Origin: Elusimicrobiota bacterium
GTDB taxonomy: Bacteria > Elusimicrobiota > Elusimicrobia > UBA1565
Reading direction: 5' to 3'
NCBI GenBank assembly: GCA_016218495.1
Contig: JACRDU010000079.1
Location: forward strand, 1 to 38,444
DNA: 38,444 nucleotides
Positions 6,817-23,768 of this stretch are shown here, piece after piece (the stretch's first letter is position 1; each line of letters begins with the position of its first letter). The notes under the pieces were generated by a model. That model saw only the letters and a program-made list of their open reading frames with translations. It had not been told where the DNA came from and did not search any database. The translations under genes were made by a program, and so were the position numbers.

Positions 6817-7298
6817 TCCTCCGCCTCGCCGGCGGTCTCGCCCAAGCGCAGGGTCTGCACGTCCTTATCGGCCGTCATCAGCGTCACCGTCTTCTGCTCC
6901 ATCTTGATGGTGCCGGTGATCCCGGGGACGGGCTTCTTCTTAGGGTCATAGACCCGCCCGCCCTTGAGGACGAAGGAGGTGGCCGTGGAGGCGTCGAAGA
7001 GCAGGGCCGTATAGCCCTTCTTGTCCCTCATCAGCCCCTTGAGCTCGAGGGAGTGGATGGTGAAGTTCTCGGGGTCGTATTCCTTGACCGTCGAGGGCGC
7101 GGCGGCCACGCCCGCCCCGCCCAGCTTCATGAACGGGTCCCGGAACTTCGCTCCGCCGTAGATGTCGTCGACGGTGAGCGGCTTCGCCGCGGCGCTGGAG
7201 GCATCGACGGCCGTCGCGGCGGCCTCGGGCGCCGGAGCGGCGGCCGAGGCGGTCCCCGACAGGGACAGCAGCGCTGGCAGGAGGAGGGAGATGGTCAT
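6813..7298 (-). CDS. pilP: Type IV pilus assembly protein PilP
   Basis: This 161-residue protein has an N-terminal signal peptide (MTISLLLPALLSLSGTASA) and a disordered Ala-rich stretch. It then has the PilP-type segment KFRDPFMKLGG followed by a small beta domain (residues 75-150: FTIHSLELKGLM, TALLFD, FVLKGGRVYDP). PilP links the inner-membrane PilN/PilO pair to the secretin PilQ in the periplasm. Classical PilP proteins are lipoproteins, but no lipobox cysteine is present here, so it is probably a soluble or signal-anchored variant. It overlaps pilO at its start and pilQ at its end by 4 bases. The assignment relies on context as well as motif. Confidence 0.88.
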   Translation of the reverse strand: MTISLLLPALLSLSGTASAAAPAPEAAATAVDASSAAAKPLTVDDIYGGAKFRDPFMKLGGAGVAAAPSTVKEYDPENFTIHSLELKGLMRDKKGYTALLFDASTATSFVLKGGRVYDPKKKPVPGITGTIKMEQKTVTLMTADKDVQTLRLGETAGEAEE

Positions 7299-7840
7299 CC
7301 TTTGTACTGGTACGAGACCAGTTGGAACTTCACCGTCATGCGGCCGTCCGAATCCGGCGAGCCGTAGACGATCTGCCGGACGTTGAAGATGCGCTCTTCC
7401 AAAGCCAGGCCCGCGAGGAGCCGCCCGAGCTCGTGATAGGAGGCCGTCGCGTCCACATTGTAGCTGGTCTCGATGAAGTGGGGCTGCGCCTTGGAGGCGC
7501 CCGCCGAGAGCCCCGTCAGCTTCACGTTGTAGCGCCTGGCCAGCGCGGAGACGGTGTCGATGGTCCCGGGCAGGTCCAGGGTCTTGGGCAGGCGCCGCTC
7601 GGCCTCGAGCGCCTGGATGTTCAGCTCGTCGAGCTCCTTCTGGATCTTGTTGAGGCGGACGGCCTGGGTCTTGGCCTTGGAGATCTTGGACTCGACCTCC
7701 TCGATCTGCTTCTTGGTCTCGGAGATCTTCTCCGAGATGGGGAGCCAGAAGTACTTCACGTAGACGAAGCCCCCCCCGCCCAGCGCGACGACGGCGAGGA
7801 CCAGGTACTGCTGCTGCTCCTTGGAGAGCTTTATGGTCAC
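7295..7840 (-). CDS. pilO: Type IV pilus inner-membrane protein PilO
   Basis: The frame stays open further upstream, but the real start is the GTG at 7838-7840. It overlaps the pilN stop (GTGA) and gives 181 residues that begin MTIKLSKEQQQYLVLAVVAL. There is one membrane helix (residues 11-30), then a coiled coil of about 50 residues (ISEKISETKKQIEEVESK). A ferredoxin-like periplasmic domain follows and ends with QLVSYQYKG. This is the bitopic layout of PilO, which pairs with PilN to form the alignment complex. The longer version would replace a clean N-terminus with an Arg/Gly-rich shadow of pilN, so it was rejected. Confidence 0.93.
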   Translation of the reverse strand: MTIKLSKEQQQYLVLAVVALGGGGFVYVKYFWLPISEKISETKKQIEEVESKISKAKTQAVRLNKIQKELDELNIQALEAERRLPKTLDLPGTIDTVSALARRYNVKLTGLSAGASKAQPHFIETSYNVDATASYHELGRLLAGLALEERIFNVRQIVYGSPDSDGRMTVKFQLVSYQYKG

Positions 7841-8394
7841 TTCTTCGCTCCGTCGGCCGGCTTGTACTTGATCGTCATGGGGAAGGTCACCCCGCCGTCG
7901 GGGTCGATCGAGAGGGCGCCCATGACGGGGTCCTTGAAATGGACGGCGTCCTGCAGGGCCCGCAGCCACTTCGTGGCGGCCTCCGAGCTGCTCGCCTGGC
8001 ACTGCAGGCTCACGACCAGTTCGGGGGAGGCGCCGGCGACGCTGATGCCCTTCATCCAGACCCCGTCCCCGATGATCTCCAGGAGCCGCCCCATGAACTG
8101 GGGATAGAAGCTGCGCGCGGTGAGGAGGTCGCGGATGACGTCGAGCCGGCCCTTCACCGCGCGGGCCTTGGCCTCGAGCTCCTCGACCTGCTTGACGATC
8201 GCCTCGAGGCGCTTGAATTCGGCCTCGGCCTCGACCCGGCGGGCCTCGAGCTGGACGCCCTTGTAGTAATGGGAGAAGGAGATGCCGGCGAAGACCAGCG
8301 CCAGGCAGCCTGCGGCCACGGAGACCTGGGCGAGGCGCTGCTTCTGCAGCTCCTTGTCGAGGATCTCCTGCGGGACGAGGTTTACCCTGATCAT
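7837..8394 (-). CDS. pilN: Type IV pilus inner-membrane protein PilN
   Basis: This 185-residue protein starts MIRVNLVPQEILDKE. The INLLP-like cytoplasmic motif (here VNLVP, residues 4-8) binds the PilM groove. A single membrane helix lies at about 24-44, followed by a coiled coil (EARRVEAEAEFKRLEAIVKQVEELEAKA) and a periplasmic domain with an alpha/beta fold. The ATG overlaps the pilM stop (ATGA) and the end overlaps pilO (GTGA). Length, topology and motif all fit PilN. Confidence 0.94.
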   Translation of the reverse strand: MIRVNLVPQEILDKELQKQRLAQVSVAAGCLALVFAGISFSHYYKGVQLEARRVEAEAEFKRLEAIVKQVEELEAKARAVKGRLDVIRDLLTARSFYPQFMGRLLEIIGDGVWMKGISVAGASPELVVSLQCQASSSEAATKWLRALQDAVHFKDPVMGALSIDPDGGVTFPMTIKYKPADGAKK

Positions 8395-9548
8395 GCCCAG
8401 TCCCTGTTACGCCTCAGCGCCAGCCCCGCCGCGACCCCCAGGGCCGGGAGCAGGTCGGGCGGGAATCCGTCGGGCAGGCCCGGCACGAAGGCCAGCGGGT
8501 TCATGACCGTGACCGGGACCTTGAGCTCCAGCGACAGGGCCTTGGCCAGGTTCTTCATCCGCGCGGAGCCGCCGACCAGGACGATGCGGCCGATCGAGCG
8601 CTCGGGGCCCTGCGACAGGTAGAAGTCCACGGAGCGGTGGAGCTCGGCCACCAGGTCCTTGAGCACGCCCGAGACGGCCTGCGAGACGCCCAAGGCGTCC
8701 CGGTTCCCCTCGGCGAGGGCCTTCTCCTTCTCCTCGGCGTCGATCAGGAGACCGAAGGACTTCTTGGCCTCTTCGGCCTTCGCCGGGTCGTACTGCAGGG
8801 CCTTGGCGATGGCCTTCGTGAAGGTGTTGCCGGCGATGAAGACGTCGCGCACCACGCGCGTGACCCCGCCGTCGAGGATGGACAGGTTGGTCACCATGTG
8901 CCCGATGTTGAGGTAAAGGGTCGAGCCGGCCTTGTCGTCGCCGCCGATGGCCTCGTGGACGGTCTCCAGCGAGAAGGAGTCCACGTCGATGACGGCGGGC
9001 TTGAGGCCCACCGCCTCGAGGATCTCCACGCGCGCCTGGATGAGGTCCTTCTTGGCGGCGACCAGGACGGTCTCCATCTTCTTCTGGCCTTCCTCGACGA
9101 GGTCGCCCAGGATGTGGAAGCCCAGCTGGACGTCGTTGATGTCGAAGGGGATGAAGGGCTCCGCCTCGGTGGCCAGGGTGGCGCGCAGCTCGTCCTTGGT
9201 CAGCTTGGGGAACTTGACGTAGCGGACGATGACGGCGTTCCCGGAGATGGCGGTGGCGGCGTGCTTGACCTGCACGCCCTTCTCGATCAGCAGGGCGCGC
9301 AGGCGGTTGATGGTCTGCTGCTTCTTCTCGTCGGGGGACGCGTCGGGCTTCGCGTCGATGGGGGCATAGCCCCAGGCCTTGACGCCCCAGGAGGCCCCCT
9401 CCTTCTTGAGGTGGAGGATCTTGACGGAAAAGGTGCCGATGTCGACGCCCACGACCTCGGTCGGGCCGAACAGGAACGAAGCCTTGTCCTGCAGGCCCTT
9501 GAGGTCGATGGCTTTAAACCGGTCCTTTATCGCTTCCAGCCCGCCCAT
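8391..9548 (-). CDS. pilM: Type IV pilus ATPase-like protein PilM
   Basis: This 385-residue protein has the actin/FtsA fold and sits in the cytoplasm, where it binds the PilN tail. Nucleotide-binding motifs are visible: VVGVDIGTFSVKI (phosphate 1, residues 32-44), LYLNIGHMVTNLSIL (phosphate 2) and IVLVGGSARMKNL (adenosine motif). The start is the ATG at 9546-9548 (MGGLEAIKDRF). A strong Shine-Dalgarno AGGAGG (9552-9557, minus strand) lies 3 nt before it, or 5 nt if read as GGAG. A longer in-frame version (to 9704) would run back through the leader terminator and is rejected. pilM heads the operon. Confidence 0.95.
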   Translation of the reverse strand: MGGLEAIKDRFKAIDLKGLQDKASFLFGPTEVVGVDIGTFSVKILHLKKEGASWGVKAWGYAPIDAKPDASPDEKKQQTINRLRALLIEKGVQVKHAATAISGNAVIVRYVKFPKLTKDELRATLATEAEPFIPFDINDVQLGFHILGDLVEEGQKKMETVLVAAKKDLIQARVEILEAVGLKPAVIDVDSFSLETVHEAIGGDDKAGSTLYLNIGHMVTNLSILDGGVTRVVRDVFIAGNTFTKAIAKALQYDPAKAEEAKKSFGLLIDAEEKEKALAEGNRDALGVSQAVSGVLKDLVAELHRSVDFYLSQGPERSIGRIVLVGGSARMKNLAKALSLELKVPVTVMNPLAFVPGLPDGFPPDLLPALGVAAGLALRRNRDWA

Positions 9549-9614
9549 TCTCCTCCTAGGAGCAAGTCCGACGGCGCGCGAACCCGCGAGGAACGGCCCT
9601 CGCGGTCCAATGGT

Positions 9615-9655
9615 AAAAAAAAACGCCGACGCCCCAAAGCTCGGGGCTCTCGGCG
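9615..9655 (-). terminator. Strong intrinsic terminator in the pilM leader
   Basis: On the minus strand a GC-rich hairpin (9624-9635 pairs with 9643-9655) has arms CGCCGA.GCCCC and GGGGC..TCGGCG in plus-strand letters, a small internal loop and a 7-nt loop. It is followed by nine T residues (complement of 9615-9623). It lies between the candidate pil promoter and the pilM start, in the same direction as pilM. No other minus-strand gene ends here, so it is more likely an attenuator or the end of a short leader RNA than a normal gene terminator. Confidence 0.8.
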
Positions 9656-9675
9656 CACAGCATGGAACCAGCTTC

Positions 9676-9704
9676 TTTTTAACAGGATTCGTCCCTCTTG
9701 TCAA
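9676..9704 (-). promoter_or_regulatory. Candidate sigma70-type promoter for the pil operon
   Basis: Reading the minus strand, a perfect -35 TTGACA (9699-9704) is followed after 17 nt by TAAAAA (9676-9681), a weak but plausible -10. The predicted start is near 9669. It would give a leader of about 120 nt that contains the intrinsic terminator and then the Shine-Dalgarno of pilM. It is an eye-read match with no experimental support. Confidence 0.55.
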
Positions 9705-9750
9705 GCCCTAGGCCGTCAGGCGCGGGATGGCGGTCCCCGGACCCAACCGC

Positions 9751-9756
9751 TATAAT
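9751..9756 (+). promoter_or_regulatory. -10 box TATAAT immediately before the radical SAM gene
   Basis: A perfect TATAAT ends 9 nt before the ATG at 9766. No good -35 was found at 16-18 nt spacing. Transcription would start about three bases before the ATG, with no room for a Shine-Dalgarno. It is divergent from the pil promoter. Confidence 0.55.
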
Positions 9757-9765
9757 AGGACTCCG

Positions 9766-11355
9766 ATGTCCATGATGGACCTGTTCTCGCCCCGGCAACG
9801 CCCCTTCAAGTCCGGCCCCCCCCCGCGCCGGCCCCGCAAGGACCGGGCCGACGTCCTGCTGGTCTACCCCATCTGGGTGATGAAGGCCGGACGCGGGACC
9901 CTGCAGAGGATGCTCCCCCCGCTGGGCGTCCTCTCCATCGCGGCGAACCTCGAGAAGCACGGCTACGAGGTCCACGTCATCGACCTCCACGCCGAGGAGC
10001 TCAACCCCGAGCAGTTCCGGGCCGCCGTGCGGACCCTCAGGCCCCGCTTCGTCGGCATCACCGTCTGGACCCCGCACTTCATCCCGGCCCACCACATCGC
10101 CTCCATCTGCAAGGCCGAGGTCCCCGACGTCCGGGTCATCGCCGGCGGCACCCACGCCGAGATCGCCCCGGAGCAGATGCTCCAGAACCCCGCCTTCGAC
10201 GCCGTCTGCCGCGGGGACGGCGAGGACGCCATGCTGGAATTCGTCCGCGGCGCCGAGCCCCGGTCGATCCTGGGCCTGAGCTGGCTGGAGCGGGGACGCG
10301 TCGTGCACAACCCGCCGCGCGACATCTCCCTGGACCTGGACGCCTATCCTTTCCCGGCCTACCACCTCATAGACCTCGACCTCTATTTCCCCCCCGTCAG
10401 CTCCTACCGCGACCTCCCCGCGATCAACGTCCTGATGACCCGGGGCTGCCCGGGGAAATGCACCTTCTGCAATTCCGCGAACACGACGCTGCGTTCGCGC
10501 AGCCCCGAGAAGATGGTCGAGCTCCTGTCGGTGCTGCGCAACGAGCACGGCATCCGCCAGGCCTACTTCTACGACGACACCTTCACGGCCAACCCGAAGT
10601 CGGTGAGGGAGTTCTGCCGCCTCATGCTCGAGAAGAAGGTCGACATGAAGTGGATGTGCTACGTGCGCGGCGACATGTTCACCGACGCGCTGGCCGAGCT
10701 GATGGCCCGGGCGGGCTGCCACCAGGTGCTGATGGGGGTCGAGTCCGGCAGCTCGACTTTGATGGCGAAGATCGGCAAGCCCATCCAGAAGGAGAAGTAC
10801 CTGCGCTCCGTCCAGACCGCCCACCGCTTCGGCATCGAGGTCCGCGGCTCCTTCATCATCGGCCACCTCGGCGAGACCCGGGAGACGATGGTCGAGACCG
10901 TCGACTTCGCCAAGGAGATGGACGTCGACTTCTTCCAGCTGAGCCTCATGGTCCCCTACCCGGGCACCGCGCTCTTCAACGAGTGCCGGGAGCGGGGGCT
11001 GCTCTACCACGAGGACTACTCGCGCTACGGCCCCAGCGAGCTGGTGATGAAGCTAGACAACCTCGAGGGCCCCGAGGTCGTCGCCTTCGAGAAGCGCTCC
11101 TTCTTCATGTTCTACATGCGGCCCAAGATCCTCTGGCGCCAGCTCGCCCGCATCGCCAACTGGCAGCAGTTCAAGGACCTCTTCAAGGCCGCGCGCATCA
11201 TCCTGCTCGACGGCATCAGCGCCTTCTCCCGGGACTCCAAGGGCCTGCAGGGCTGGCTCGACTTCGACCTGAAGGCCGCCGCCGACCCCGCGGTCGCCGT
11301 CCCGGCCGTCTCCCGCCTCACCTACAGCGTCAAGGAAGGCGACGGCATCGTCTAG
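9766..11355 (+). CDS. B12-binding-domain radical SAM protein
   Basis: This is a 529-residue protein. Residues 25-150 form a Rossmann-like cobalamin-binding-type domain (ADVLLVYPIW, PPLGVLSIAANLEKHGYEV, VIDLHAEE, FVGITVWT, VIAGGTHAE). The usual DxHxxG cobalamin motif is only partly kept. The radical SAM core begins near 220 with the cluster ligands C228, C232 and C235 in GCPGKCTFC. Later family motifs are FYDDTFTANP, MGVESGS and SFIIGHLGET. Such enzymes methylate or rearrange unreactive carbons in lipids, cofactors or natural products. The start chosen is the ATG just after TATAAT; ATGs 2 and 3 codons on are alternatives. It precedes the head-group-type cluster by 45 bp, so a role in that pathway is possible but unproven. 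Confidence 0.88.
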   Translation: MSMMDLFSPRQRPFKSGPPPRRPRKDRADVLLVYPIWVMKAGRGTLQRMLPPLGVLSIAANLEKHGYEVHVIDLHAEELNPEQFRAAVRTLRPRFVGITVWTPHFIPAHHIASICKAEVPDVRVIAGGTHAEIAPEQMLQNPAFDAVCRGDGEDAMLEFVRGAEPRSILGLSWLERGRVVHNPPRDISLDLDAYPFPAYHLIDLDLYFPPVSSYRDLPAINVLMTRGCPGKCTFCNSANTTLRSRSPEKMVELLSVLRNEHGIRQAYFYDDTFTANPKSVREFCRLMLEKKVDMKWMCYVRGDMFTDALAELMARAGCHQVLMGVESGSSTLMAKIGKPIQKEKYLRSVQTAHRFGIEVRGSFIIGHLGETRETMVETVDFAKEMDVDFFQLSLMVPYPGTALFNECRERGLLYHEDYSRYGPSELVMKLDNLEGPEVVAFEKRSFFMFYMRPKILWRQLARIANWQQFKDLFKAARIILLDGISAFSRDSKGLQGWLDFDLKAAADPAVAVPAVSRLTYSVKEGDGIV

Positions 11356-11400: not shown

Positions 11401-12798
11401 ATGCCCCGTCCCACAACCATCCTGTTCGACTACGGCGGCACCCTCGACGACGACGGCCGCCATTGGCCGGTGCGCTGGCACGCCCATTTCGAGGAGGCCG
11501 GGGCGGCCGTCCCCCGGGAGGCCTTCCTGCGCGCCTTCTCGCAGGCCGACGCGGCCCTCCCCCGCCGCCACGGACTGGAGCGGGCCGGCCTCGAGGAGAC
11601 GGCGGCCCTGCTGGGAAGCGACCTGGCCCATGCGCTGACCCCGGGGCGTCCCGAACTCGGGGCGCGGGCCGCCGAGGCCTTCGTGCTGTCGAGCCGTCGG
11701 TTCCTGCGCCGGAACCGCGCGCTGCTGGAATCCCTGAAGGCCCGCTTCCGCCTCGGCGTCGTCTCCAACTTCTACGGGAACCTGGGCGCCGTCCTCGAAG
11801 CGGAGGGCCTGTCCCCGCTCTTCGACGCCGTAGCCGATTCGGCCCGCGTGGGCGCCTCGAAGCCCGACGGCCGCATCTTCCGCTGGGCCCTGGAGCGCCT
11901 GGGGACCGGGCCGCAGCAGGCGCTGATGGTCGGGGATTCCCCCCCCGCCGACCTACGCGGGGCCGAAGCGCTGGGCATGCCGCACGCCTGGCTGGCTGGC
12001 GCGCGCCCCGACCGCTCCCCGTGCTGCGCGGGGACCCCGGTGCTGGCCAGCCTGCTCGAGCTGGGTCCGCTGCTGCTCGGCAAGCCTCCCGCCGCGGCCG
12101 GCATCATCGCCGCGGGCCTGGGCGAGCGCCTGCGCGGGTCGCATCCGGGCCTGCCCAAGCCCTTGGTCCCCGTCGGCGGCAAGCCCCTCGTCTCCTGGGT
12201 CGCCCGGGCCCTCTTCGACGCGGGCGTGGAGCGCTTGACCGTCCTCTTCAACAGCCGCGGGCGGGCGGCCCGCGAGGAGCTGCGCAGGGCCTTCCCGGGC
12301 CGGCGCATCGACTTCCTGGAGGCCGACACGCCGAGCTCGTTCGCGAGCTTCCGGCTCGTCGCCCGGGAGCTGGCCGCGCGCGAGGAGAGCTTCCTGATGA
12401 GCACCGTCGACGCCCTGGTGCCGCCGGCCGAGGTGCTGCGCTTCGCCGCGGAGGCCTTCGCGCCCGGCCCCGGGCCGCGCCCCCGGGCCGCCGTCGCCCT
12501 GACGCGCTACGTCGACGACGAGAAGCCCCTGTGGGCGGAGCTGGGGGAGGACGGGACGGTGCGCGCCTTCGGGGACGCCGTGTCGCGCCGCGAGACGGTG
12601 ACCTGCGGCCTCTACGCCCTCACCCGCGAGGCCGCGGCGGCCCTGCCCGAGGCCGCGCCGCGGCTGCGCGACTACTGGGCCGGCTTGGCCGCCTCGGGCG
12701 CGGCCGTCCGGGGCGTCGTGCTGACGGACACCATCGACGTTGACCGGCCCGAGGACATCCCCGCGGCGGAGAGGCTCATATCATGTTTCGGTGCCTAG
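11401..12798 (+). CDS. Fusion of HAD-family hydrolase and sugar-phosphate-type nucleotidyltransferase
   Basis: This is a 465-residue two-domain protein. Residues 5-215 are a HAD domain: motif I FDYGGTLD (D10), motif II VSN, motif III K154 in ASKPD and motif IV GDSPPAD. The second motif I aspartate, which acts as acid/base in HAD phosphatases, is Gly12, so ordinary phosphatase activity is doubtful. Residues 231-465 are a nucleotidyltransferase: AAGLGERL, then PKPLVPVGGKPLVSW, then STVDALVP. This is the pattern of enzymes that make NDP-sugars or CDP-alcohols from phosphates. The end overlaps the next gene by 16 bp. Within the cluster the second domain probably activates the head-group precursor with CTP or another NTP. 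Confidence 0.85.
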   Translation: MPRPTTILFDYGGTLDDDGRHWPVRWHAHFEEAGAAVPREAFLRAFSQADAALPRRHGLERAGLEETAALLGSDLAHALTPGRPELGARAAEAFVLSSRRFLRRNRALLESLKARFRLGVVSNFYGNLGAVLEAEGLSPLFDAVADSARVGASKPDGRIFRWALERLGTGPQQALMVGDSPPADLRGAEALGMPHAWLAGARPDRSPCCAGTPVLASLLELGPLLLGKPPAAAGIIAAGLGERLRGSHPGLPKPLVPVGGKPLVSWVARALFDAGVERLTVLFNSRGRAAREELRRAFPGRRIDFLEADTPSSFASFRLVARELAAREESFLMSTVDALVPPAEVLRFAAEAFAPGPGPRPRAAVALTRYVDDEKPLWAELGEDGTVRAFGDAVSRRETVTCGLYALTREAAAALPEAAPRLRDYWAGLAASGAAVRGVVLTDTIDVDRPEDIPAAERLISCFGA

Positions 12799-13631
12799 GC
12801 ATCTACCGCGAGCTGCAGAACTCCCCCGGACGCGAGACCGACGACGCGCTGATACTGAAAGCGGTGCTGGAACAGCTCGAGGTCCTCGGGGTCAAGACCG
12901 AAGCCCGGACGCCCGAAGAGCTCGACGCCACGGACCCCTCCGGCTACGACCTGGTCGTCCCGATGTGCGAGGCGCCCGCCCGCATCGCGCGCCTCGACGG
13001 GCTGGCCCGGCGCGGAGGGCCGGCCCTCTGGGTCAACCCCCCTGCCGCGGTCCTGGCCTGCTACCGCACCGCGATGGTCCCGCGCCTCGCGGCCGAGCCG
13101 GGCGTGACGCTCCCCGCCTCCGAGGTCAGGCCCCTGGGCGCGGACGCGGGGCCCCCGCCGGCCTTCGCCGCCCCCCACGGCTGGTGGGCCAAGCGCGGCG
13201 ACGTCCACAACACCTGCGACCGCGACGTCGTGCGCATCGCGCGCTGGTCGGACGCCCCCGCGGTGGCGGCCGACTTCGCCGCGCGCGGCATCCGGCACTG
13301 GGTCCTCCAGGCCCACACGCCAGGCGACCTGGTGAAGTTCTACGGCGTCGGCCCGGGGCACTGGTTCACCTGGTTCTACCACGACCCGGTGCGCGCCAAG
13401 CGCACGCCCTTCGACCTCGACGGCTTGGCCGCCCAGGCCTCCTGCGGGGCGCGCGCGCTGGGCCTCGAGGTCTTCGGGGGCGACGCCATCATCGGGGAGG
13501 GCGGCGCCGTCTCGGTGATCGACCTCAACTCCTGGCCCAGCTTCGCCTTGGTGCGCCGCGGGGCCTCCGTCCAGATCTCGTGGCATCTGCAGAGGCGCCT
13601 GAAGGGCGCCCTCTCGGGAAGGGAACCGTGA
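12783..13631 (+). CDS. ATP-grasp fold enzyme of unknown substrate
   Basis: This 282-residue protein was read as ATP-grasp from several segments. WVNPPAAVLACYRTAMVPRL (84-103) resembles the NP..A...C.DK element. WWAKRGD (K137) could supply an ATP lysine. GDLVKFYGVG (181-190) matches the D.KVY.VG strand. FGGDAIIG...VIDLNSWPSF (D234, D247, N249) matches the metal-binding end of RimK-like ligases and inositol-phosphate kinases. ATP-grasp enzymes join a carboxyl to an amine or thiol, or phosphorylate a hydroxyl. It starts inside the previous gene (16-bp overlap) and overlaps the aminotransferase by 4 bases. It may phosphorylate or amidate the head-group precursor before nucleotide activation. Confidence 0.72.
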   Translation: MFRCLGIYRELQNSPGRETDDALILKAVLEQLEVLGVKTEARTPEELDATDPSGYDLVVPMCEAPARIARLDGLARRGGPALWVNPPAAVLACYRTAMVPRLAAEPGVTLPASEVRPLGADAGPPPAFAAPHGWWAKRGDVHNTCDRDVVRIARWSDAPAVAADFAARGIRHWVLQAHTPGDLVKFYGVGPGHWFTWFYHDPVRAKRTPFDLDGLAAQASCGARALGLEVFGGDAIIGEGGAVSVIDLNSWPSFALVRRGASVQISWHLQRRLKGALSGREP

Positions 13632-14965
13632 CGACATTGAGCAAGGACCAGACGGCCGCAGGACCCCGTTCCAAGGCGCTCTTCCAGGAGGAGCAGGGCT
13701 ACCTGACCCCCGGCCTCCAGCAGATCGCCGTGTTCTCCCAGCTGGCCATGGCCCGCGGCCGCGGCGCGGTCTTGACCGACGAGGACGGCAAGGAGTACCT
13801 GGACCTGGTGGCCGGCGTCTGCGTGGCCTCCATCGGCCACGGCCATCCCGAGTACGCGAAGGCGCTGGCCGAGCAGGCCTCCGCCATCACCGTCGGCAGC
13901 TTCACGACCAAGGCCCGCGTCTCCTTCTGCCGGCGCCTGATGCCGCTCTTGCCCAAGGGCCTCGACCGCGTCCAGCTCTACTCCAGCGGCGCCGAGGCCG
14001 TCGAGGCGGCCTTCCGCCTGGCCAAGAGCCGCACCAAGAAGTTCGAGTTCGGGGCGTTCTGGGGCGGCTTCCACGGCAAGACCGGCGGAGTCCTGCCGCT
14101 CCTGGGCGACACCTCCTTCAAGGCCGGTCTCGGGCCGCTGATGCCGGGGACCTACTCCTTCCCGTACCCGAACCCGTACCGCTGCCCGTTCAAGAACGAG
14201 GCTCCGCACGACTGCGCCGCGCACTGCCTGGAGTTCCTGCGCGAGTCCCTCTCCCGCTCCACCACGGGGGCCCTGGCGGCGCTCATCTGCGAGCCCGTCC
14301 AGGGGACGGCCGGGAACGTCATCCCGCCGGCCGGCTGGCTCAAGGGCCTCAAGGAGGTCGCCGCCGAGCGCGGGGCCCTGCTCATCGCCGACGAGATGAT
14401 CACCGGCTTCGGGCGCACCGGGCGCTGGTTCGGAGTGGACCACGAGGGCGTCGTCCCCGACGTGATGACCGTCGGCAAGGGCATCGCCGGGGGCTTCCCG
14501 GTCAGCGGCGTCATCACCACCGCCGAGATCGCCGCGTCCAAGCCCTTCGCCAACCCCTCGGGGTCCTCCTCGAGCTACGGCGGCAACCCCCTGGCCGCCG
14601 CGGCCTGCGACGCGACGCTGCGCATCCTCGAGGCCGAGAAGCTCGTCGAGAACAGCCGCGCGGTGGGGGCGGCGATGCTGGCGCGCCTGAAAGCGATGCC
14701 GGACCGCTTCCCGTTCATCGGCGACGTGCGCGGGCGCGGGCTGATGATCGGCGTGGAGCTCGTCGCCGACCGGTCGACCAAGGAGCCGCTCGGCAAGGAC
14801 CGCTGCCGCGCCCTCTTCGAGGAGGGCCTGCGGCGCGGGCTCGTCACGATGGCCTATTCCCCGGTCATCCGCATCAACCCTCCGCTGAACATCACCGCCG
14901 CGCAGGCCGACGAGGCCCTCGACCGCCTCGAGGCCTGCTTCGCCTGGCTCGCCGCCCTCCCGTGA
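13628..14965 (+). CDS. Class III PLP-dependent aminotransferase
   Basis: This 445-residue protein resembles 4-aminobutyrate and glutamate-1-semialdehyde aminotransferases. Visible elements are SSGAEAVEAAFRLA (PLP phosphate contacts), CEPVQGTAGN, IADEMITGFGRTG with D255 for the pyridine nitrogen, and TVGKGIAGG with the Schiff-base lysine K284. The true start is the GTG at 13628, overlapping the ATP-grasp stop (GTGA). A much longer open frame upstream is a shadow of the two preceding genes. The enzyme swaps an aldehyde or ketone for an amine, so the cluster product probably carries an amino group. The exact substrate is unknown. Confidence 0.9.
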   Translation: MTTLSKDQTAAGPRSKALFQEEQGYLTPGLQQIAVFSQLAMARGRGAVLTDEDGKEYLDLVAGVCVASIGHGHPEYAKALAEQASAITVGSFTTKARVSFCRRLMPLLPKGLDRVQLYSSGAEAVEAAFRLAKSRTKKFEFGAFWGGFHGKTGGVLPLLGDTSFKAGLGPLMPGTYSFPYPNPYRCPFKNEAPHDCAAHCLEFLRESLSRSTTGALAALICEPVQGTAGNVIPPAGWLKGLKEVAAERGALLIADEMITGFGRTGRWFGVDHEGVVPDVMTVGKGIAGGFPVSGVITTAEIAASKPFANPSGSSSSYGGNPLAAAACDATLRILEAEKLVENSRAVGAAMLARLKAMPDRFPFIGDVRGRGLMIGVELVADRSTKEPLGKDRCRALFEEGLRRGLVTMAYSPVIRINPPLNITAAQADEALDRLEACFAWLAALP

Positions 14966-15984
14966 CGCAGGCGCCGGCGCCGCTGCGCGGGGCGTTGGTG
15001 GGCTTCGGCCGCGTGGCCGAGGACGCCCACCTGCCCGCCTTCCGGGCCTCCCCCGGCTTCGTCGTCGCCGCGGTGGTCGAGGCGGACCCCCGGCGCAGGA
15101 AGGCCGCCGCGGCGGCGCTGCCCGGGGCGCGCCTCTACGCGTCCCTGGCCGAGCTCGCCGCGGACGGGCCCGGCCTGGACTTCGTCGACATCGCCACCCC
15201 TCCTTGGCTGCACGCCCCGCTGGCGAAGGAGGCCCTGGAGGCGGGGCTGCACGTGCTCTGCGAGAAGCCGTTGGCCTTGCGCGAGGCGGACCTCGACGCC
15301 CTGGCCGCGGCCGCCGAGGCCGGCGGCCGCGCGCTGGTCTGCGTGCACAACTGGAAGAAGGCGCCGCTGTTGGCCAAGCTCAAGGAGCTGCTCGACGCCG
15401 GCGCCGTCGGCGACCTGCGCTACGCCGAGTGGCAGGTGCTACGCACCGAGCCGGCAAAAGACGCGGGCGGCGGCTGGCGCACCGACCCGGCCCGCTCCGG
15501 CGGCGGCATCGTCATGGACCACGGCTGGCATGCCTTCTACCTGCTGTGCTGGCTGCTGGGCCGGCGTCCGACGTCGGCTTCGGCGCTGCTGGCGCCGGCG
15601 GCCCGGAGCGAGGAGGAGGCCACCGTCCTGGCCGGCTTCGGGGCCCTGAGCGCCGTCGTCCACCTGAGCTGGCGCGCCCCCCGGCGCGGGCACCGCGGGG
15701 AGTTCCGGGGCTCGCGCGGCGCCGTCGAGGTCCAAGACGACGCCCTGGTCGTCCGCCTGGCCGACGGCTCGGAGTCGCGCTTCGTCTTCGCCGAGCCGCT
15801 CTCGAAGGGCTCCGCCCACCCCGAATGGTTCCGGGGGACCCTCGCGGACTTCGCCGACGCCGTGCGCGACCCGCGCGCCCGCGCCGCCGCCCTCGAGGAG
15901 GCGCGCGACGCGATGCGCCTCGTGGAGCTCTGCTACGCGTCCGCCCCGGCCCGCGGCGCGCGACGCAGGGCGAAGGCGCCATGA
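14962..15984 (+). CDS. Gfo/Idh/MocA family oxidoreductase
   Basis: This 340-residue protein starts at GTG overlapping the aminotransferase stop. The NAD(P)-binding motif is ALVGFGRVAEDAHLPAF (11-27) and the catalytic-type EKP is at 101-103 (CEKPLAL). A C-terminal alpha/beta substrate domain includes GGGIVMDHGWHAFYLL. The family oxidises or reduces polyols, sugars and nucleotide sugars. Placed between an aminotransferase and a CDP-alcohol phosphatidyltransferase, it may make the carbonyl that the aminotransferase uses, or interconvert a polyol phosphate. It is distinct from the second Gfo/Idh protein in the lpx operon. Confidence 0.88.
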   Translation: MTQAPAPLRGALVGFGRVAEDAHLPAFRASPGFVVAAVVEADPRRRKAAAAALPGARLYASLAELAADGPGLDFVDIATPPWLHAPLAKEALEAGLHVLCEKPLALREADLDALAAAAEAGGRALVCVHNWKKAPLLAKLKELLDAGAVGDLRYAEWQVLRTEPAKDAGGGWRTDPARSGGGIVMDHGWHAFYLLCWLLGRRPTSASALLAPAARSEEEATVLAGFGALSAVVHLSWRAPRRGHRGEFRGSRGAVEVQDDALVVRLADGSESRFVFAEPLSKGSAHPEWFRGTLADFADAVRDPRARAAALEEARDAMRLVELCYASAPARGARRRAKAP

Positions 15985-17135
15985 CGGTCAAGGACGCGGT
16001 CCTCTGGGTCCCCCATCCGGCGCTGATGTTCTCCCGCGTGGCCGGGCTGGGCGTCCTCGAGCGCCAGCTCTTCGTGCTGCGCCGGGCCGGCCTGGCCGGG
16101 GTCTGGATCGGCACCCCGCGCCCGCCCGAGGCCGCCGGCCTGCGCCTGCCCGAGGGCCTCGCGGTGCGCTGGGCCGAGCCGGGGGGCACGGTGGAGGCCC
16201 CGGTGAAGCCGCCCTACCTCTCGGTCTCGGGGGACCATCTGGTACGGCTCGCGGCCCTGCGGCGCATCCTGTCCGAAACGCCCGACCGCCCGGTCTCCTG
16301 GAAGGACGCGCAGGGACGCGGCGTGCTCCAGCTCGTGCTGTCGGCCAGGGACGACCAGGTCGGCTTCGAGTCCCGCCCCTTCGAGGCCGGCGCCTCGGTC
16401 TTCCTGACGCAGCCGCCCCGCGACGCCGTCGAGTGGATCGTCAAGGACGCGGTGAAGGGCACCGACGGCTTCATGGCCCGGCATTTCGACCGCCGCATCT
16501 CCCTGGCCGTGACCCGGCGCCTGCTCGACACCGTGGTCATGCCCAACCACATGACCTTCGTGAGCGTGGGCTTCGGGCTGGCCGGCGCGGCGCTGCTCGC
16601 CGTCGGGACCTACGGCGCCTCGCTGGCGGGGGCGCTGCTGGTCTGGCTGCATTCCACCCTCGACGGCTGCGACGGGGAGCTGGCCCGCCTGCGCTTCCAG
16701 GAGAGCCCCCTCGGGGGGGTCCTCGACTTCTGGGGGGACAACGTCGTGCATGCGGCCCTGTTCCTGGGCCTGGGGCTGGGCCTCTCCCGCGCCCACGGCG
16801 CGCTCTGGCCTCTGGCGCTGGGGCTGGTCGCCGCGGCGTCGGCGTCGGCCTCGGCCGCGCTGGCCTACGCCCACTCGCGGCGCAAGGCCGCCGCGGCCCC
16901 CGGGCCCGGCCCGTTCTTCTCCGGCGTCGCGGAGGTGGCGGCGCAGGCCGCGCCGGCCGAGCGCCGCCTGGCCGCTCTCGAGGACTCCCTGGCGCAGCGC
17001 GACTTCATCTACGCCCTGGTCGTCCTGGCCGCCCTGGGCCGGACCGGCTGGTTCCTCTGGGCCGCGGCGCTCGGCTCGCCGGCCTTCCTGGCGGTGCTGG
17101 TCTGGCTGCACCGGCCGCGCCGGCCCGCATCTTGA
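15981..17135 (+). CDS. CDP-alcohol phosphatidyltransferase with N-terminal nucleotidyltransferase-like domain
   Basis: This is a 384-residue protein. The catalytic CDP-alcohol phosphotransferase signature is complete: D228xxD231G..A235R236(x8)G245xxxD249xxxD253 (TLDGCDGELARL...GGVLDFWGD). Several membrane helices surround it. Just before the membrane part is TDGFMARHFDRRIS, a hallmark of the subgroup related to inositol-phosphate cytidylyltransferase/DIPP synthase fusions. Residues 1-150 (LERQLFVLRRAGLAGVWIG) look like a degenerate nucleotidyltransferase without the GxGxR loop. The enzyme moves a phospho-alcohol from a CDP-alcohol to a lipid or alcohol acceptor at the membrane. The ATG overlaps the oxidoreductase stop. 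It is the last gene of the coupled cluster. Confidence 0.88.
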   Translation: MTVKDAVLWVPHPALMFSRVAGLGVLERQLFVLRRAGLAGVWIGTPRPPEAAGLRLPEGLAVRWAEPGGTVEAPVKPPYLSVSGDHLVRLAALRRILSETPDRPVSWKDAQGRGVLQLVLSARDDQVGFESRPFEAGASVFLTQPPRDAVEWIVKDAVKGTDGFMARHFDRRISLAVTRRLLDTVVMPNHMTFVSVGFGLAGAALLAVGTYGASLAGALLVWLHSTLDGCDGELARLRFQESPLGGVLDFWGDNVVHAALFLGLGLGLSRAHGALWPLALGLVAAASASASAALAYAHSRRKAAAAPGPGPFFSGVAEVAAQAAPAERRLAALEDSLAQRDFIYALVVLAALGRTGWFLWAAALGSPAFLAVLVWLHRPRRPAS

Positions 17136-17159
17136 GCGCCGGCCAGTAATTCGTATAAT
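17132..17159 (+). promoter_or_regulatory. Promoter before the GNAT gene (TTGAGC - 16 nt - TATAAT)
   Basis: A -35-like TTGAGC (17132-17137) overlaps the stop of the previous gene. A perfect TATAAT (17154-17159) follows after 16 nt. The start codon at 17167 lies 7 nt beyond the -10, so the transcript would begin at or one base before the ATG (leaderless). Confidence 0.65.
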
Positions 17160-17166
17160 CGCCGGG

Positions 17167-17682
17167 ATGGAAATCATCATCCGGGGCGAGAAGTCGGGGG
17201 AGCGCTCCACCTCAGAGGAGATCCTCCGGCAGGCCTACGGCCGCGAGAACGAGGTCCAGCTCGCCTCGGCGCTCCGGGCCCTGGCCGAGTTCAACCCGAA
17301 CCTCTCCATCGTCGCGGCCAACGGCAGCGAGATCCTCGGCTACGCGCTCTACGCCCGGGTGATGGTCTCGGGGTCGACGGTCCTGCCCGCCGCCGCGCTC
17401 GCCGTCATGGGCGTGCGGCCCGAGAACCGCAAGCTGGGCGTCGGCGAGCGCCTCGTGCGCCACGGCCTCGAGCGCTGCCGCGGCATCAAGATCGACCTGG
17501 TCTTCGCCTCCGCTCTGCCGGCGTTCCTCGCCCGGATGGGCTTTCAGGCCGCCGCGCCCCTGGGGCTCAAGCCGGACTGGGCCGTCCCCGAAGGCGAGTT
17601 CAGCGTCTTCGACCTGAGCGGTTCCCGGCTCGGGAAGGTCTCGGGGACCGTGACCTACCCGGGCCCCTACCACGGGTCCTGA
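17167..17682 (+). CDS. GNAT family N-acetyltransferase (YhbS-like)
   Basis: This 171-residue protein begins MEIIIRGEKSGERSTSEEILRQAYGRENE. The acetyl-CoA region reads VMGVRPENRKLGVGERLVRHGLERC, a variant of the V.P..R..G.G..L motif in which Q/R-x-x-G-x-G is RKLGVG. A late segment FLARMGFQAA is typical of the fold. YhbS-type GNATs acetylate small amines or proteins; the substrate here is unknown. The start follows a promoter directly, and no Shine-Dalgarno is present. It stands between the head-group cluster and bamA as its own short unit. Confidence 0.82.
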   Translation: MEIIIRGEKSGERSTSEEILRQAYGRENEVQLASALRALAEFNPNLSIVAANGSEILGYALYARVMVSGSTVLPAAALAVMGVRPENRKLGVGERLVRHGLERCRGIKIDLVFASALPAFLARMGFQAAAPLGLKPDWAVPEGEFSVFDLSGSRLGKVSGTVTYPGPYHGS

Positions 17683-17760: not shown

Positions 17761-20415
17761 GTGTACACCTTCCGTATTATCCTGTTTCCGCTTATTCTAG
17801 CGGTATTTTCCGGGATTGCATCTGGGCAAGAGGCGTCCGGGGAACCCCGGAACGAAGCCGTTTCGGCGCCCGTCGTCGCCCAGATCCAGGTCTACGGCCT
17901 CAAGACCGTCTCGGAGGACCGGGTGCGCTCCCTCGTCTCGGTCAAGCTCTGGGAGCCCTACCCCCCCGAGGCCAAGGCCGCCGACATGGCCGCGCTCCTG
18001 GGCTCCAGCCTCTTCACAGGCGTCTCCATCCGCGTGGTGGCCCTCTCCTCGGCGGCGCTGCGCGTCGATTTCGACCTGACCGAAGGGGTCCCCCAGGCCC
18101 GCTACGGAGCGGCCGCCCCGCTCCCGCCCCCCGACCCGCACGCCGCGCCGGCCCCGCCCTGGGTCATCGGCGAGCTGGAGATCTCCGGCCAGCGCAACGT
18201 CAAGCGCTCGACCATCCGCACGCAGATCAAGGGGCGCAAGGGCGACCTCTACGACCGGCCCGACCTCGACCGGGACATCCAGGCCGTCCTGGGCCTGGGC
18301 GGCTTCGAGCGCGTGGCCGCCGACGTCACCCCGCTGCCCGACCGCCCGGTGCCCGTCCATTTCGCCTCGAGCTCGCCGTCCCCGTGGGAGGTCCGCCTCA
18401 CCTTCCTCATCGAGGAGAAGCCGCTGGTGCGCAAGGTGGAGTTCCCCGGCCGGGACAAGATGGGCAAGGGCCGCCTGGTCGACGCGATGTCGCTCAAGAA
18501 GGGGGACCCGTTCGACCGGGCCAAGATGCGCGACGACGCCGACAAGGTCCTCGAGGCCTACCGCAAGAAGGGCTACCTGCGCGCCTCGGTCGAGCCCGAG
18601 GTCGCCGTCGACACCGCGGCGCTCCAGGCCGACCTGTCGATGAAGGTCGTCGAGGGCCCCCGCTCCAGGCTTGCCCGGGTGGACTTCCTCGGCATCAAGG
18701 CCTTCAAGCCCAAGAAGCTGCTCAAGGGCATGACGAACAAGCCCGGCTGGCTCTTCGACAAGGCCTTGACCGAGAAGGAGATACCAGACGACCTGCGCAA
18801 GGTCGAGGCCAAGTACAAGAACAAGGGATACCTCGACATGAAGGTGCTCTCCTCGACGGTCTCGTTCAACGAGGCCGGCACCGAGGCCGTGCTGACCGTC
18901 TCCATCGAGGAAGGCGCCCAGTACCGCTACGGCGACACCACCTTCTTCGGCCACACCCTCTACGTCTCGACGGAGCTGGCCAAGGCCCTCGAGTACAAGA
19001 AGGGCAAGCTCTTCAGCCAGGAGAAGTTCGACGCCTCCGTGCGCGGGCTCCAGGAGCTCTTCGCCGAGAAGGGCCGGCTCCGCGCCCTCATCTCCCCCGA
19101 GAAGACCTTCAACCCGGCCACGGGCCTGATGGACGTGCGCTTCGACATCCAGGAGGGCCCGGCCGTCTACGTCGACCACGTCGACGTGGAAGGCTACAAG
19201 GCCACCAAGGCCTGGGTGTTCACCCGCGAGATCCTGCTCAAGCCCGGCATGCTCTTCCAGGTCTCCAAGCTCCGCAAGAGCCAGGAGAAGATCATGAACC
19301 TGGGCTTCATCGACGACGTCCAGCCCGACGTCCAGAGCCCCTACGACCCCGAGAAGGTGGACCTCACCTTCGACATCGTGGAGGGCAAGCCCGGGATGCT
19401 GACGGCGGGGGCGGGGTTCTCGTCCTTGGACGGCATCCTCGGCACCCTCTCGCTGCAGCACCTGAACCTCTTCGGGCGGGCCTGGCGCTCCTCCCTGCAG
19501 TGGTCCTTCGGCGCGCGCGTGAACGACTTCTCCGCCTCCTGGATGACCCCCTGGGTCAACGACAAGCCCATCAGTCTGGGCGTGGACGCCTACAACACGC
19601 GGCGCATCTCCCCCTACGCCGGCTCGTCGAGCGCCTACGTCAACAAGCGGGTCGGCGGCGCGCTGCGCGTCGGCCCGCGCTTCGCCGACGACGTGTACCG
19701 CCTAGACACCTACTACTCCTTCGCCCAGATCTCCCTGAGCAACGTCGACCCCCAGTTCCTCGGCCAGCTCTCCGAGGGGACCAGCATCCAGTCCATGATC
19801 GGCGCCACCTTCGCGCGCGACACGCGCGACAGCGTCTGGGACCCCGCGCGCGGCTCGCGCCACGCGCTGAGCCTGGACGTCGCCGGAGGCCCGGTCTACG
19901 GCGACATCAACTTCCTGCGCCCCTCGCTTTCGGACGCCCAGCACTGGACCTTGGCCGAGGTGGAGGACTACCCGCTCGTCCTCACCCTCTCCAACCGCAT
20001 CTCCTACATCACCCAGTTCGCCGAGACCCGCACCGTCCCGGTCTTCGAGCGCTTCTTCATCGGGGGCCAGGACACCCTGCGCGGCTACTCCGCCTCCGGC
20101 GAGGCCGGCTACCGCGACGGCGGCCGGGTCTACGACGTGGCCAACATCGAGCTCGGGTTCCCCCTGGCGCGCGAGCGCAAGAAGACCATCGTCAAGTTCG
20201 TGACCTTCTACGACATCGGCGGCAGCTGGGACTCCCCCCGCACGATGCGCCTCAAGGTCGGGCAGGACCAGCAGGACATCAAGTCGAACGTCGGGTTCGG
20301 CATCCGCTTCACGACGCCGGCCTTCCCGATCCGCCTCGACTGGGGCTACGGCTTCCAGCACCGCCCCGGCGAGGCCAAGTACCAGATAAACTTCGGCATA
20401 GGGAACCTCTTCTAA
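17761..20415 (+). CDS. bamA: Outer-membrane assembly factor BamA, six POTRA repeats
   Basis: This 884-residue protein inserts beta-barrel proteins into the outer membrane. The GTG start gives a signal peptide (FRIILFPLILAVFSGIASG). Six POTRA-like units can be read at about 38-109, 134-221, 222-300, 301-386, 387-467 and 468-543, one more than in E. coli BamA. A Pro/Ala-rich linker lies between units 1 and 2. The C-terminal 16-strand barrel (544-884) has the conserved L6 motif LRGY (773-776) within GGQDTLRGYSASGEAG and ends in Phe (INFGIGNLF), as outer-membrane proteins do. It heads the envelope operon; the next gene starts on its stop codon (TAATG). Confidence 0.95.
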   Translation: MYTFRIILFPLILAVFSGIASGQEASGEPRNEAVSAPVVAQIQVYGLKTVSEDRVRSLVSVKLWEPYPPEAKAADMAALLGSSLFTGVSIRVVALSSAALRVDFDLTEGVPQARYGAAAPLPPPDPHAAPAPPWVIGELEISGQRNVKRSTIRTQIKGRKGDLYDRPDLDRDIQAVLGLGGFERVAADVTPLPDRPVPVHFASSSPSPWEVRLTFLIEEKPLVRKVEFPGRDKMGKGRLVDAMSLKKGDPFDRAKMRDDADKVLEAYRKKGYLRASVEPEVAVDTAALQADLSMKVVEGPRSRLARVDFLGIKAFKPKKLLKGMTNKPGWLFDKALTEKEIPDDLRKVEAKYKNKGYLDMKVLSSTVSFNEAGTEAVLTVSIEEGAQYRYGDTTFFGHTLYVSTELAKALEYKKGKLFSQEKFDASVRGLQELFAEKGRLRALISPEKTFNPATGLMDVRFDIQEGPAVYVDHVDVEGYKATKAWVFTREILLKPGMLFQVSKLRKSQEKIMNLGFIDDVQPDVQSPYDPEKVDLTFDIVEGKPGMLTAGAGFSSLDGILGTLSLQHLNLFGRAWRSSLQWSFGARVNDFSASWMTPWVNDKPISLGVDAYNTRRISPYAGSSSAYVNKRVGGALRVGPRFADDVYRLDTYYSFAQISLSNVDPQFLGQLSEGTSIQSMIGATFARDTRDSVWDPARGSRHALSLDVAGGPVYGDINFLRPSLSDAQHWTLAEVEDYPLVLTLSNRISYITQFAETRTVPVFERFFIGGQDTLRGYSASGEAGYRDGGRVYDVANIELGFPLARERKKTIVKFVTFYDIGGSWDSPRTMRLKVGQDQQDIKSNVGFGIRFTTPAFPIRLDWGYGFQHRPGEAKYQINFGIGNLF

Positions 20416-21335
20416 TGAGAAAACCAGCCCTCGCCCTCGCCCTCGCCCTGCTCGCGGCCGCCGCGCCGCTCTGCGCCCTGGAGATCAGCCTCGAGGAGAA
20501 CCGCGGCGAACGCGGCTCCATCGGCTACGTCGACCTGCAGGCCGTGTTCCGCCGCTTCCCCGAGACCCAGAAGGCCAAGCAGAGCTACGCCGAGATCGTC
20601 CGCCAGGCCGAGGAGCAGGTGAACCTGCGCAAGGCCGAGCTCATCCGGCTGCGCTCGGAGCTGACGAACTTGCGCGCCGAGCGCGAGGCCGCCGCCCAGG
20701 CCCCCATCTTCGTCCCGCCGCCCCCCGCGCCCGAGGCGCCGGCCCAGCCGCCGGTCCCCGTCCCGGCTCCCGCGGAGCCCGCCCCGGCCCCCGCTCCCGA
20801 GCCGGCCAAGGCCGAAGCTCCGCCGGCGGACCCGGCCGCCGCCCTGACCGGCCTTCCCGGGATGGGCGCTCCCGCCTCGACGGAACCGCTGAGGATCAGC
20901 ATCCCGGGCCTCCCTGAAGAGGAGATGCCCACCGCGGCAGAGGCCCTGGGGACGGAGGAGCCCGCTCCGGCCGCCGCGCCCGCGCAGCCCGCCGGCCCGG
21001 CCCCGGCGGAGCTCCAGGCCCGCGCCGAGCGCGAGCTGCGCGAGCGCGACCAGCGCGTGAAGGACCTGGACGCGGCCGTCGCCGCCAAGCAGAAGGACAT
21101 CGCCGACAAGGAGTCGGGCCTGGTCGACTTCCAGGCCCAGCTCGAGAAAAACCTCGTCGACATCGAGTCGAAGCGCTCCGAGATGCTTCTCGGGCGCATC
21201 TACAAGGCCGTGCGCGAGACGGCCGTGGAGAACGGGGTCAGCGTCGTCATCGACAAGAGCGCCATCCTGTTCGGCCAGGGCTCGGTGGACCTGACCGCGA
21301 AGGTGCTCAAGAGGTTGGAGGCCGCCCTGCCATGA
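20415..21335 (+). CDS. OmpH/Skp-family periplasmic chaperone with Pro/Ala-rich insertion
   Basis: This 306-residue protein has a signal peptide (residues 1-22) and the Skp/OmpH start IGYVDLQAVFRRFPETQKAK (36-55). A first coiled-coil arm covers about 55-95. A Pro/Ala-rich insert of about 100 residues follows (96-198, PPPPAPEAPAQPPVPVP). A second coiled coil covers 199-256, and the closing motif is LGRIYKAVRETAVENGVSVVID. Skp holds unfolded outer-membrane proteins for BamA. Typical members are 160-190 residues without the insert, so the inserted linker is unusual. The ATG shares one base with the bamA stop. The end overlaps lpxD (ATGA). Confidence 0.88.
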   Translation: MRKPALALALALLAAAAPLCALEISLEENRGERGSIGYVDLQAVFRRFPETQKAKQSYAEIVRQAEEQVNLRKAELIRLRSELTNLRAEREAAAQAPIFVPPPPAPEAPAQPPVPVPAPAEPAPAPAPEPAKAEAPPADPAAALTGLPGMGAPASTEPLRISIPGLPEEEMPTAAEALGTEEPAPAAAPAQPAGPAPAELQARAERELRERDQRVKDLDAAVAAKQKDIADKESGLVDFQAQLEKNLVDIESKRSEMLLGRIYKAVRETAVENGVSVVIDKSAILFGQGSVDLTAKVLKRLEAALP

Positions 21336-23262: not shown

Positions 23263-23284
23263 GCCTGAGCCCGGGAGAACAACC

Positions 23285-23761
23285 ATGGACGCAGAGACCT
23301 GCTGTCAGACGGCCGTTCCGGTGCGCACCATCGACATCAGCGGCATCATGAAGTGCATCCCGCACCGCTACCCGTTCCTCCTCGTCGACAAGGTCGACGT
23401 GATGGAGGAGGGCAAGCTCGCCGTCGGCACCAAGTGCGTGACGATGAACGAGCACTTCTTCCAGGGCCACTTCCCCGGCCAGCCCATCATGCCGGGCGTG
23501 CTCATCATCGAGGCCCTGGCCCAGACCGCCTGCGTGATGCTGATGTCCAAGGGGGGCTTCGAGAACAAGATCGCCTTCTTCCTCGGCATCGAGGAGGCCA
23601 AGTTCCGCAACGCCGTGACCCCCGGCACCGTGCTCTCCCTCAAGGTCGAGGTCCTCAAGCTCGGCGGGCGCGCCGGACGCTTCAAGGGCACGGCCATGCT
23701 CGGCGACAAGGTGGCCTGCGAGGCGGAGATGTCCTTCGTGCTGGCCGACAAGAAGGCCTGA
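23285..23761 (+). CDS. fabZ: 3-hydroxyacyl-ACP dehydratase FabZ
   Basis: This 158-residue hot-dog-fold enzyme dehydrates 3-hydroxyacyl-ACP in fatty acid synthesis and competes with LpxA for the same substrate pool. Conserved parts are IPHRYPFLLVDKV (25-37) and the active-site helix GHFPGQPIMPGVLIIEALAQ with H62 and E76. It has a GGGAG-like Shine-Dalgarno in the 22-bp gap after lpxC. About 15 extra N-terminal residues (including Cys6-Cys7) precede the usual start region; an internal start is possible but no better. fabZ between lpxC and lpxA is a common arrangement. Confidence 0.96.
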   Translation: MDAETCCQTAVPVRTIDISGIMKCIPHRYPFLLVDKVDVMEEGKLAVGTKCVTMNEHFFQGHFPGQPIMPGVLIIEALAQTACVMLMSKGGFENKIAFFLGIEEAKFRNAVTPGTVLSLKVEVLKLGGRAGRFKGTAMLGDKVACEAEMSFVLADKKA

Positions 23762-23768
23762 GGCGGCC

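Follow-up and report, generated by a model that had tools for sequence, protein, structure and literature searches.

A five-gene cluster conserved across bacterial phyla and its possible role in making an amino-inositol phosphate head group for hopanoids

The window, the whole stretch of 38,444 nucleotides that was analysed (JACRDU010000079.1, assembly GCA_016218495.1), is contig 44 of a 4.15 Mb Elusimicrobiota genome labelled G000, and it carries a cluster of five genes on the + strand. The first (11401-12798, 465 aa) encodes a HAD hydrolase fused to a MobA/IPCT-like nucleotidyltransferase (HAD-NTPT), and is followed by genes for an ATP-grasp protein (12783-13631, 282 aa), a class III pyridoxal phosphate (PLP) aminotransferase (AT3; 13628-14965, 445 aa), a Gfo/Idh/MocA dehydrogenase (GFO; 14962-15984, 340 aa) and a CDP-alcohol phosphotransferase (CDPAP; 15981-17135, 384 aa). 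The ATP-grasp protein was assigned by profile, AlphaFold and Foldseek and the other four by Pfam. Consecutive genes overlap by 16 bases (12783-12798), and then by 4 bases each at 13628 (GTGA, which holds the GTG start of AT3), 14962 (GTGA) and 15981 (ATGA). A first-pass annotation, made from the letters of the DNA alone, had described five genes with these overlaps and proposed that they form a new pathway for a lipid head group; our coordinates and starts agree with that description, and all five genes are intact. The overlaps by themselves are an ordinary operon feature and vary among relatives, and it is the gene order conserved across phyla, not the overlaps, that exceeds chance.

Relatives were sought in one genome per species, which gave 37 loci with a relative of the CDPAP gene. 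Genes per locus were counted by tblastn, since all-against-all clustering of open reading frames had merged several of the cluster families through fused or overlapping frames. The NTPT, ATP-grasp, AT3, GFO and CDPAP genes were found together in 24 of the 37 loci, nearly always in the order HAD-NTPT-ATP-grasp-AT3-GFO-CDPAP; several of the others (L011, L012, L018, L027, L028 and L030) are truncated where their contig stops. The hosts are labelled Elusimicrobiota, Nitrospirota, Methylomirabilota, Rokubacteria, Acidobacteriota, Thermodesulfobacteriota, Myxococcota and Hyphomicrobiales, and the cluster spans at least seven bacterial phyla. Since the genes lie together in this many loci across phyla, the possibility raised with the first-pass annotation, that the five never co-occur in other genomes, does not hold. 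Furthermore, the pairwise divergences of the six domains correlate (r = 0.81-0.95). HAD and NTPT form one fused protein in the window, L009 and L020, and two genes encode them in 21 other loci. The CDPAP gene heads the cluster in L018, L021 and L030, and in L033 and L039 it is divergent, which makes the remaining genes the tighter unit. On one Acidobacteria contig an ATP-grasp domain is fused to a CDP-alcohol phosphotransferase (CDP-AP) domain (L040:6600-8699), and the same contig carries a second cluster copy (L029) about 13 kb away. Metagenome-assembled genomes labelled Odyssella (L034:1275-2099, L038:8822-9586) have a CDP-AP gene and then an IPCT-like nucleotidyltransferase gene, with no aminotransferase set nearby, and possibly represent a plain phospho-inositol version.

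The predicted enzymes keep their catalytic residues. HAD-NTPT matched PF00702 at residues 6-192 and PF12804 (NTP_transf_3) at residues 235-369; the HAD nucleophile D10 is conserved in 25/25, and the NTPT residues G239-x-G241-x-R243 (glycine-rich loop), K253, D337 and D448 in 27-28 of 28. AT3 matched PF00202 (E 4e-101) with an invariant PLP lysine, Lys284 (31/31). GFO matched PF01408/PF22725, and its IolG-like K102, D186 and H190 are invariant (30/30), a Lys-Asp-His arrangement as found in inositol dehydrogenases; its match to TIGR04380 (inositol 2-dehydrogenase; E 1e-19) reached 70 bits, under the curated IolG cut-off of 355. CDPAP matched PF01066 and has the complete signature D-x2-D-G-x2-A-R-x8-G-x3-D-x3-D, with D228, D231, G232, A235, R236, G245, D249 and D253 conserved in 38/38. 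All of these motifs, those of NTPT included, are intact in the window and are kept from phylum to phylum. By profile CDPAP was closest to AF2299 (4o6m, E 7e-39) and then to IPCT-DIPPS (4mnd, E 1e-25), and its AlphaFold model (pLDDT 91.6) has the fold of AF2299/DIPPS/PIPS, with AF2299 as the top Foldseek match (E 4e-14). Its N-terminal nucleotidyltransferase-like domain is degenerate, with no AAGxGxR...PK motif, although G22, R28, A36, G37 and similar positions are conserved; activation should therefore come from NTPT.

The ATP-grasp protein had no match of its own in Pfam or NCBIfam and is a new family. The earlier reading of its motif was correct, since profile, AlphaFold (pLDDT 93.2) and Foldseek all place the product of the second gene in the ATP-grasp fold, with the metal-binding D/E-x-N confirmed. 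The metal motif D-x-N-x-W-P-S-[FY] (D247 and N249 in the window protein) was present in all relatives examined and resembles the DLNYLPSF of inositol 1,3,4-trisphosphate 5/6-kinase 4 (ITPK4). When members were compared with the ITPK-type family PF05770, 6 of 28 matched (best E 0.003), none convincingly, and the window protein gave no match.

Myo-inositol-1-phosphate synthase (MIPS), confirmed by Pfam, is a recurring neighbour of the cluster. It belongs to two unlike subfamilies: the MIPS of Elusimicrobiota, Nitrospirota, Methylomirabilota and others has both PF07994 and PF01658, and that of Rokubacteria and Hyphomicrobiales has PF01658 only. Either kind lies near the same cluster, as would be expected if the cluster requires inositol phosphate. 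MIPS was found in 33/37 cluster genomes compared with 6/14 controls, and within Elusimicrobiota in 51 of the 52 genomes that carry the ATP-grasp gene compared with none of the eight that have squalene-hopene cyclase (SHC) but lack the ATP-grasp gene (Fisher p 4e-9, kinship not corrected). The first-pass annotation had suggested that a polyol is oxidised, aminated, phosphorylated and activated, which fits the evidence, and then attached to a membrane lipid, which is still a prediction. What it missed was inositol, which the co-occurrence and adjacency of MIPS make very probable as the starting polyol, and the tie of CDPAP to hopanoid biosynthesis. That inositol is also aminated is, in our view, likely.

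SHC scored over its cut-off in 34/37 cluster genomes and HpnH in 33/37, each compared with 0/14 controls. In the window's own genome the SHC gene (31148-33049), the HpnH gene (33094-34053) and an HpnA-like frame stand in a row on contig C87, and after them come genes for prenyl synthase, DXS and IspH. Outside Elusimicrobiota, the flanking sequence retrieved for most loci included HpnL, HpnM, HpnN or SHC family genes; in an NCBIfam check of flank representatives SHC and HpnA were above their cut-offs and HpnL, HpnM and HpnN below theirs. In Rokubacteria CSP1-6 the cluster is embedded among the hpn genes, in one run that begins in L064 with HpnA, HpnH, SHC, HpnM, a CTP:inositol-phosphate cytidylyltransferase-like gene, a second CDP-AP (CDPAP2), HpnL, MIPS and CDPAP, and continues in L021 with HAD, NTPT, ATP-grasp, AT3 and GFO.

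Among 295 Elusimicrobiota genomes the ATP-grasp gene was found in 52, SHC in 48 and both in 40 (odds ratio 98). A strong CDPAP match (250 bits or more) was present in 44 genomes, all of which had the ATP-grasp gene and 39 of which had SHC; when only genomes at least 90% complete were counted, SHC was present in 31 of the 32 with CDPAP. Eight genomes have the ATP-grasp gene and no CDPAP. Seven of these (G066, G119, G167, G171, G214, G262 and G304; L047-L053) are also without SHC and HpnH and have kept MIPS and the head-group genes, with MIPS directly after GFO, at the usual place of CDPAP, in G167 and G171; the eighth, G251, has SHC, and its assembly is in 490 contigs. The simplest reading is that CDPAP is the hopanoid-dependent step and that the other genes make its donor. 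Six of the seven hopanoid-free genomes are at least 92% complete, but they belong to two families (f4 and f5), which means few independent events, and the evidence from the joint absence of CDPAP and SHC is therefore strong, not conclusive. Since the head-group genes are kept in these seven genomes, the activated amino-inositol must serve some other purpose in them.

Many of these Elusimicrobiota genomes also have a CDP-AP paralogue (about 175-225 bits). In G264 and G306 the paralogue (CDPAP2) has HpnJ and HpnI immediately upstream and an HpnL-like gene downstream (L060:5613-10426, L063:2-4075), HpnI being over its cut-off in both genomes and HpnJ over its cut-off in G264 and truncated by the contig end in G306. 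This CDP-AP branch therefore repeatedly adjoins hopanoid head-group genes; the run itself might include a phosphotransfer step around bacteriohopanetetrol (BHT) glucosamine. Taken together, we consider a functional linkage of the cluster to hopanoids likely, and covalent attachment of the head group to a hopanoid an evenly balanced question.

Gene content, folds, catalytic residues, the co-occurrence with MIPS and with hopanoid genes, and the lack of CDPAP in genomes that have no hopanoid genes are observed; we infer each of the reactions, their order, the nucleotide, the amination of inositol and the hopanoid acceptor. We propose, with about an even chance of being right, that the five genes act with a MIPS from another place in the genome to make an amino-inositol phosphate head group and attach it to a hopanoid, with one role for each enzyme. 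MIPS would convert glucose-6-phosphate to inositol phosphate, from which the HAD domain, as an inositol-phosphate phosphatase, would remove the phosphate. GFO, as an inositol dehydrogenase, would oxidise inositol to inosose, and AT3, as an inosose aminotransferase, would turn this into inosamine. The inosamine would then be phosphorylated by the ATP-grasp enzyme, an inosamine (aminocyclitol) kinase of inositol-kinase-like action, and converted to CDP-inosamine by the NTPT domain, a CTP:inosamine-phosphate cytidylyltransferase. Finally CDPAP, as a transferase acting on a hopanoid polyol, would move phospho-inosamine to a hydroxyl of an extended hopanoid, for example BHT, giving a zwitterionic phospho-hopanoid. 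The cluster is real, widespread and, as far as literature searches show, undescribed; among open-licence papers on hopanoids with inositol, phosphodiester or CDP-alcohol enzymes nothing relevant was found. The wider claim of an undescribed hopanoid class with a phosphodiester-linked amino-inositol head, made by a dedicated seven-step pathway in at least seven phyla with a CDPAP that takes a triterpenoid polyol as acceptor, is tentative and falls a little short of an even chance.

Several observations weigh against this pathway. MIPS and the hopanoid genes of the window's own genome are not on the contig of the cluster but on another, C87. Five CDPAP-positive Elusimicrobiota genomes show no SHC, of which four are 79-85% complete and one, G218, 93%, and the p-values overstate the associations because genomes within one phylum are not independent. 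At the D+2 acid position of the HAD domain, where phosphatases usually have a second Asp, there is an invariant Gly (25/25). For the ATP-grasp protein the fold matches do not separate a kinase from a ligase, since maize ITPK1 (ZmITPK1) came first in Foldseek but D-Ala ligases and LysX were about equal, so that a kinase is favoured, not demonstrated. A ligase joining an amino acid to inosamine, a variant that is compatible with the rest of the proposed pathway, is rather unlikely: the best full-length profile match of the protein is the PsnB ligase (E 2e-4), yet its metal motif reads DxNxxPSF as in ITPK and not like the aligned ELNASAMF of PsnB, and without a kinase there would be no rephosphorylation step for inosamine, unless HAD does not dephosphorylate.

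The CDPAP model looks six-helical, which tells to some degree against a lipid as acceptor. Characterised CDP-APs with lipid acceptors have three to four extra helices, and the acceptors of characterised six-helix members, among them AF2299 and DIPP (di-myo-inositol-phosphate-phosphate) synthase, are soluble (PMC4634129). The product may therefore be soluble, or the donor may be a CDP-lipid and inosamine the soluble acceptor; transfer to a hopanoid would break this rule. The same amino-inositol head might be placed on a glycerolipid, by way of diacylglycerol or exchange with CDP-diacylglycerol, to give a phosphatidyl-inosamine used alongside hopanoids. The relatives of CDPAP include phosphatidylinositol-phosphate (PIP) synthases, a CDP-lipid donor paired with a soluble acceptor is within the range of six-helix CDP-APs (PMC4634129), and a Bacteroidetes cluster of NTP transferase, CDP-AP and HAD was proposed to make phosphoinositol diacylglycerol (PI-DAG) from CDP-inositol (PMC9246714). 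However, CDPAP is absent along with SHC and HpnH while the head-group genes stay, yet glycerolipids occur with or without hopanoids, and the CDPAP paralogue lies between HpnI and HpnL-like genes; we regard a glycerolipid product as rather unlikely. We think it improbable that the product is a soluble phosphodiester, such as a DIPP-like solute, or a surface polysaccharide precursor, with the link to hopanoids being indirect. Such a product would agree with the nearest solved relatives, AF2299 and DIPP synthase, which process no lipids (PMC4634129), with the other use needed in the seven genomes that have the head-group genes and neither CDPAP nor hopanoid genes, and with the position of the locus near lipid A and outer-membrane assembly genes, but not with a hopanoid linkage seen both by neighbourhood in several phyla and by co-occurrence. 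Very improbable is a reading in which the substrate of GFO and AT3 is the side chain of the hopanoid, by analogy with HpnO and ribosylhopane, and the head added by MIPS, NTPT and CDPAP is unmodified phospho-inositol. In its favour, HpnO, the aminotransferase that produces aminobacteriohopanetriol, is difficult to distinguish from "aspartate aminotransferase family" proteins, and the enzyme leading from ribosylhopane to BHT is unknown (PMC12583986). Against it, the catalytic residues of GFO are of the inositol dehydrogenase kind, and the GFO and AT3 genes stay with MIPS in genomes without SHC and HpnH, where their substrate is therefore not a hopanoid.

The view of the first-pass annotation that the gene set matches none of the phosphatidylethanolamine, phosphatidylinositol, DIPP or phosphonolipid pathways fits the evidence: no gene specific to any of them was found in the cluster, and the nearest NCBIfam models scored far below cut-off. 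Antibiotic aminocyclitol pathways, that of streptidine among them, use similar enzymes. A precedent for the first steps is the hygromycin A pathway (Hyg18/25/17/8), which likewise has MIPS, a phosphatase, a Gfo/Idh inositol dehydrogenase and an aminotransferase (PMC10949010). The cluster differs from these in its predicted CDP-alcohol activation and membrane CDP-AP transfer, and in having the ATP-grasp protein in the place of the kinase. Like the cluster, the alternative inositol-lipid cluster of Bacteroidetes (B. vulgatus type), whose function is proposed, brings together MIPS, NTP transferase, CDP-AP and HAD, and it has nearby a lysylphosphatidylglycerol-synthase-like membrane protein comparable to the HpnL-like proteins found here (PMC9246714); by gene content, which was compared rather than sequence, our cluster adds GFO, AT3 and ATP-grasp and has a hopanoid, not a ceramide, setting. 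The archaeal IPCT-DIPPS and AF2299 have in common with CDPAP the CDP-AP fold and signature, an N-terminal nucleotidyltransferase-like domain and a juxtamembrane motif, whereas here that domain is without nucleotidyltransferase motifs, a separate NTPT would activate, and the genome context is that of a lipid, the hopanoids. The HpnI-HpnK-HpnJ route to BHT cyclitol ether also places an aminated ring head on BHT, and in some Elusimicrobiota stands beside the CDPAP paralogue, but it passes through BHT N-acetylglucosamine and its product is an ether (PMC12583986). HpnI was over its cut-off in only 12/37 cluster genomes; the cluster is therefore independent of that route, and cyclitol ether synthesis by HpnI/HpnJ was rejected as its own function.

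Hopanoids are the main bacterial analogues of sterols, and geological hopanes derive from them; several steps of their biosynthesis, and several structures, have yet to be worked out. If the proposed pathway is correct, phosphorus-containing zwitterionic hopanoids would join the known set, inositol-lipid and hopanoid metabolism would be connected, and the compounds may have been missed by extraction aimed at neutral polyols. The pathway also gives a precise mass target, and its genes can serve as a marker in phyla about which little is known, Elusimicrobiota, Rokubacteria and Methylomirabilota among them.

Upstream of the cluster, a gene for a B12-binding radical SAM protein (9727-11355) lies between PilM and the first cluster gene. 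It was rejected as a pathway member: its best NCBIfam model is HpnJ, but its score of 205 bits is far short of the cut-off, 578, and the 37 related loci showed no relative of this gene. Type IV pilus genes (a secretin with AMIN domains, PilO, PilM and small genes) occupy 4387-9704 on the - strand, divergent from the cluster, an arrangement that recurs in many Elusimicrobiota loci. Downstream, a promoter-like site at 17132-17159, 3' of CDPAP (a consensus match only), stands ahead of a GNAT acetyltransferase gene (17167-17682), a type of gene also found near the cluster in L004, L005 and L019. It is followed at 17761-24572 by an outer-membrane and lipid A assembly block with BamA/Omp85, OmpH-like, LpxD, FabA/FabZ-like and LpxA-like genes.

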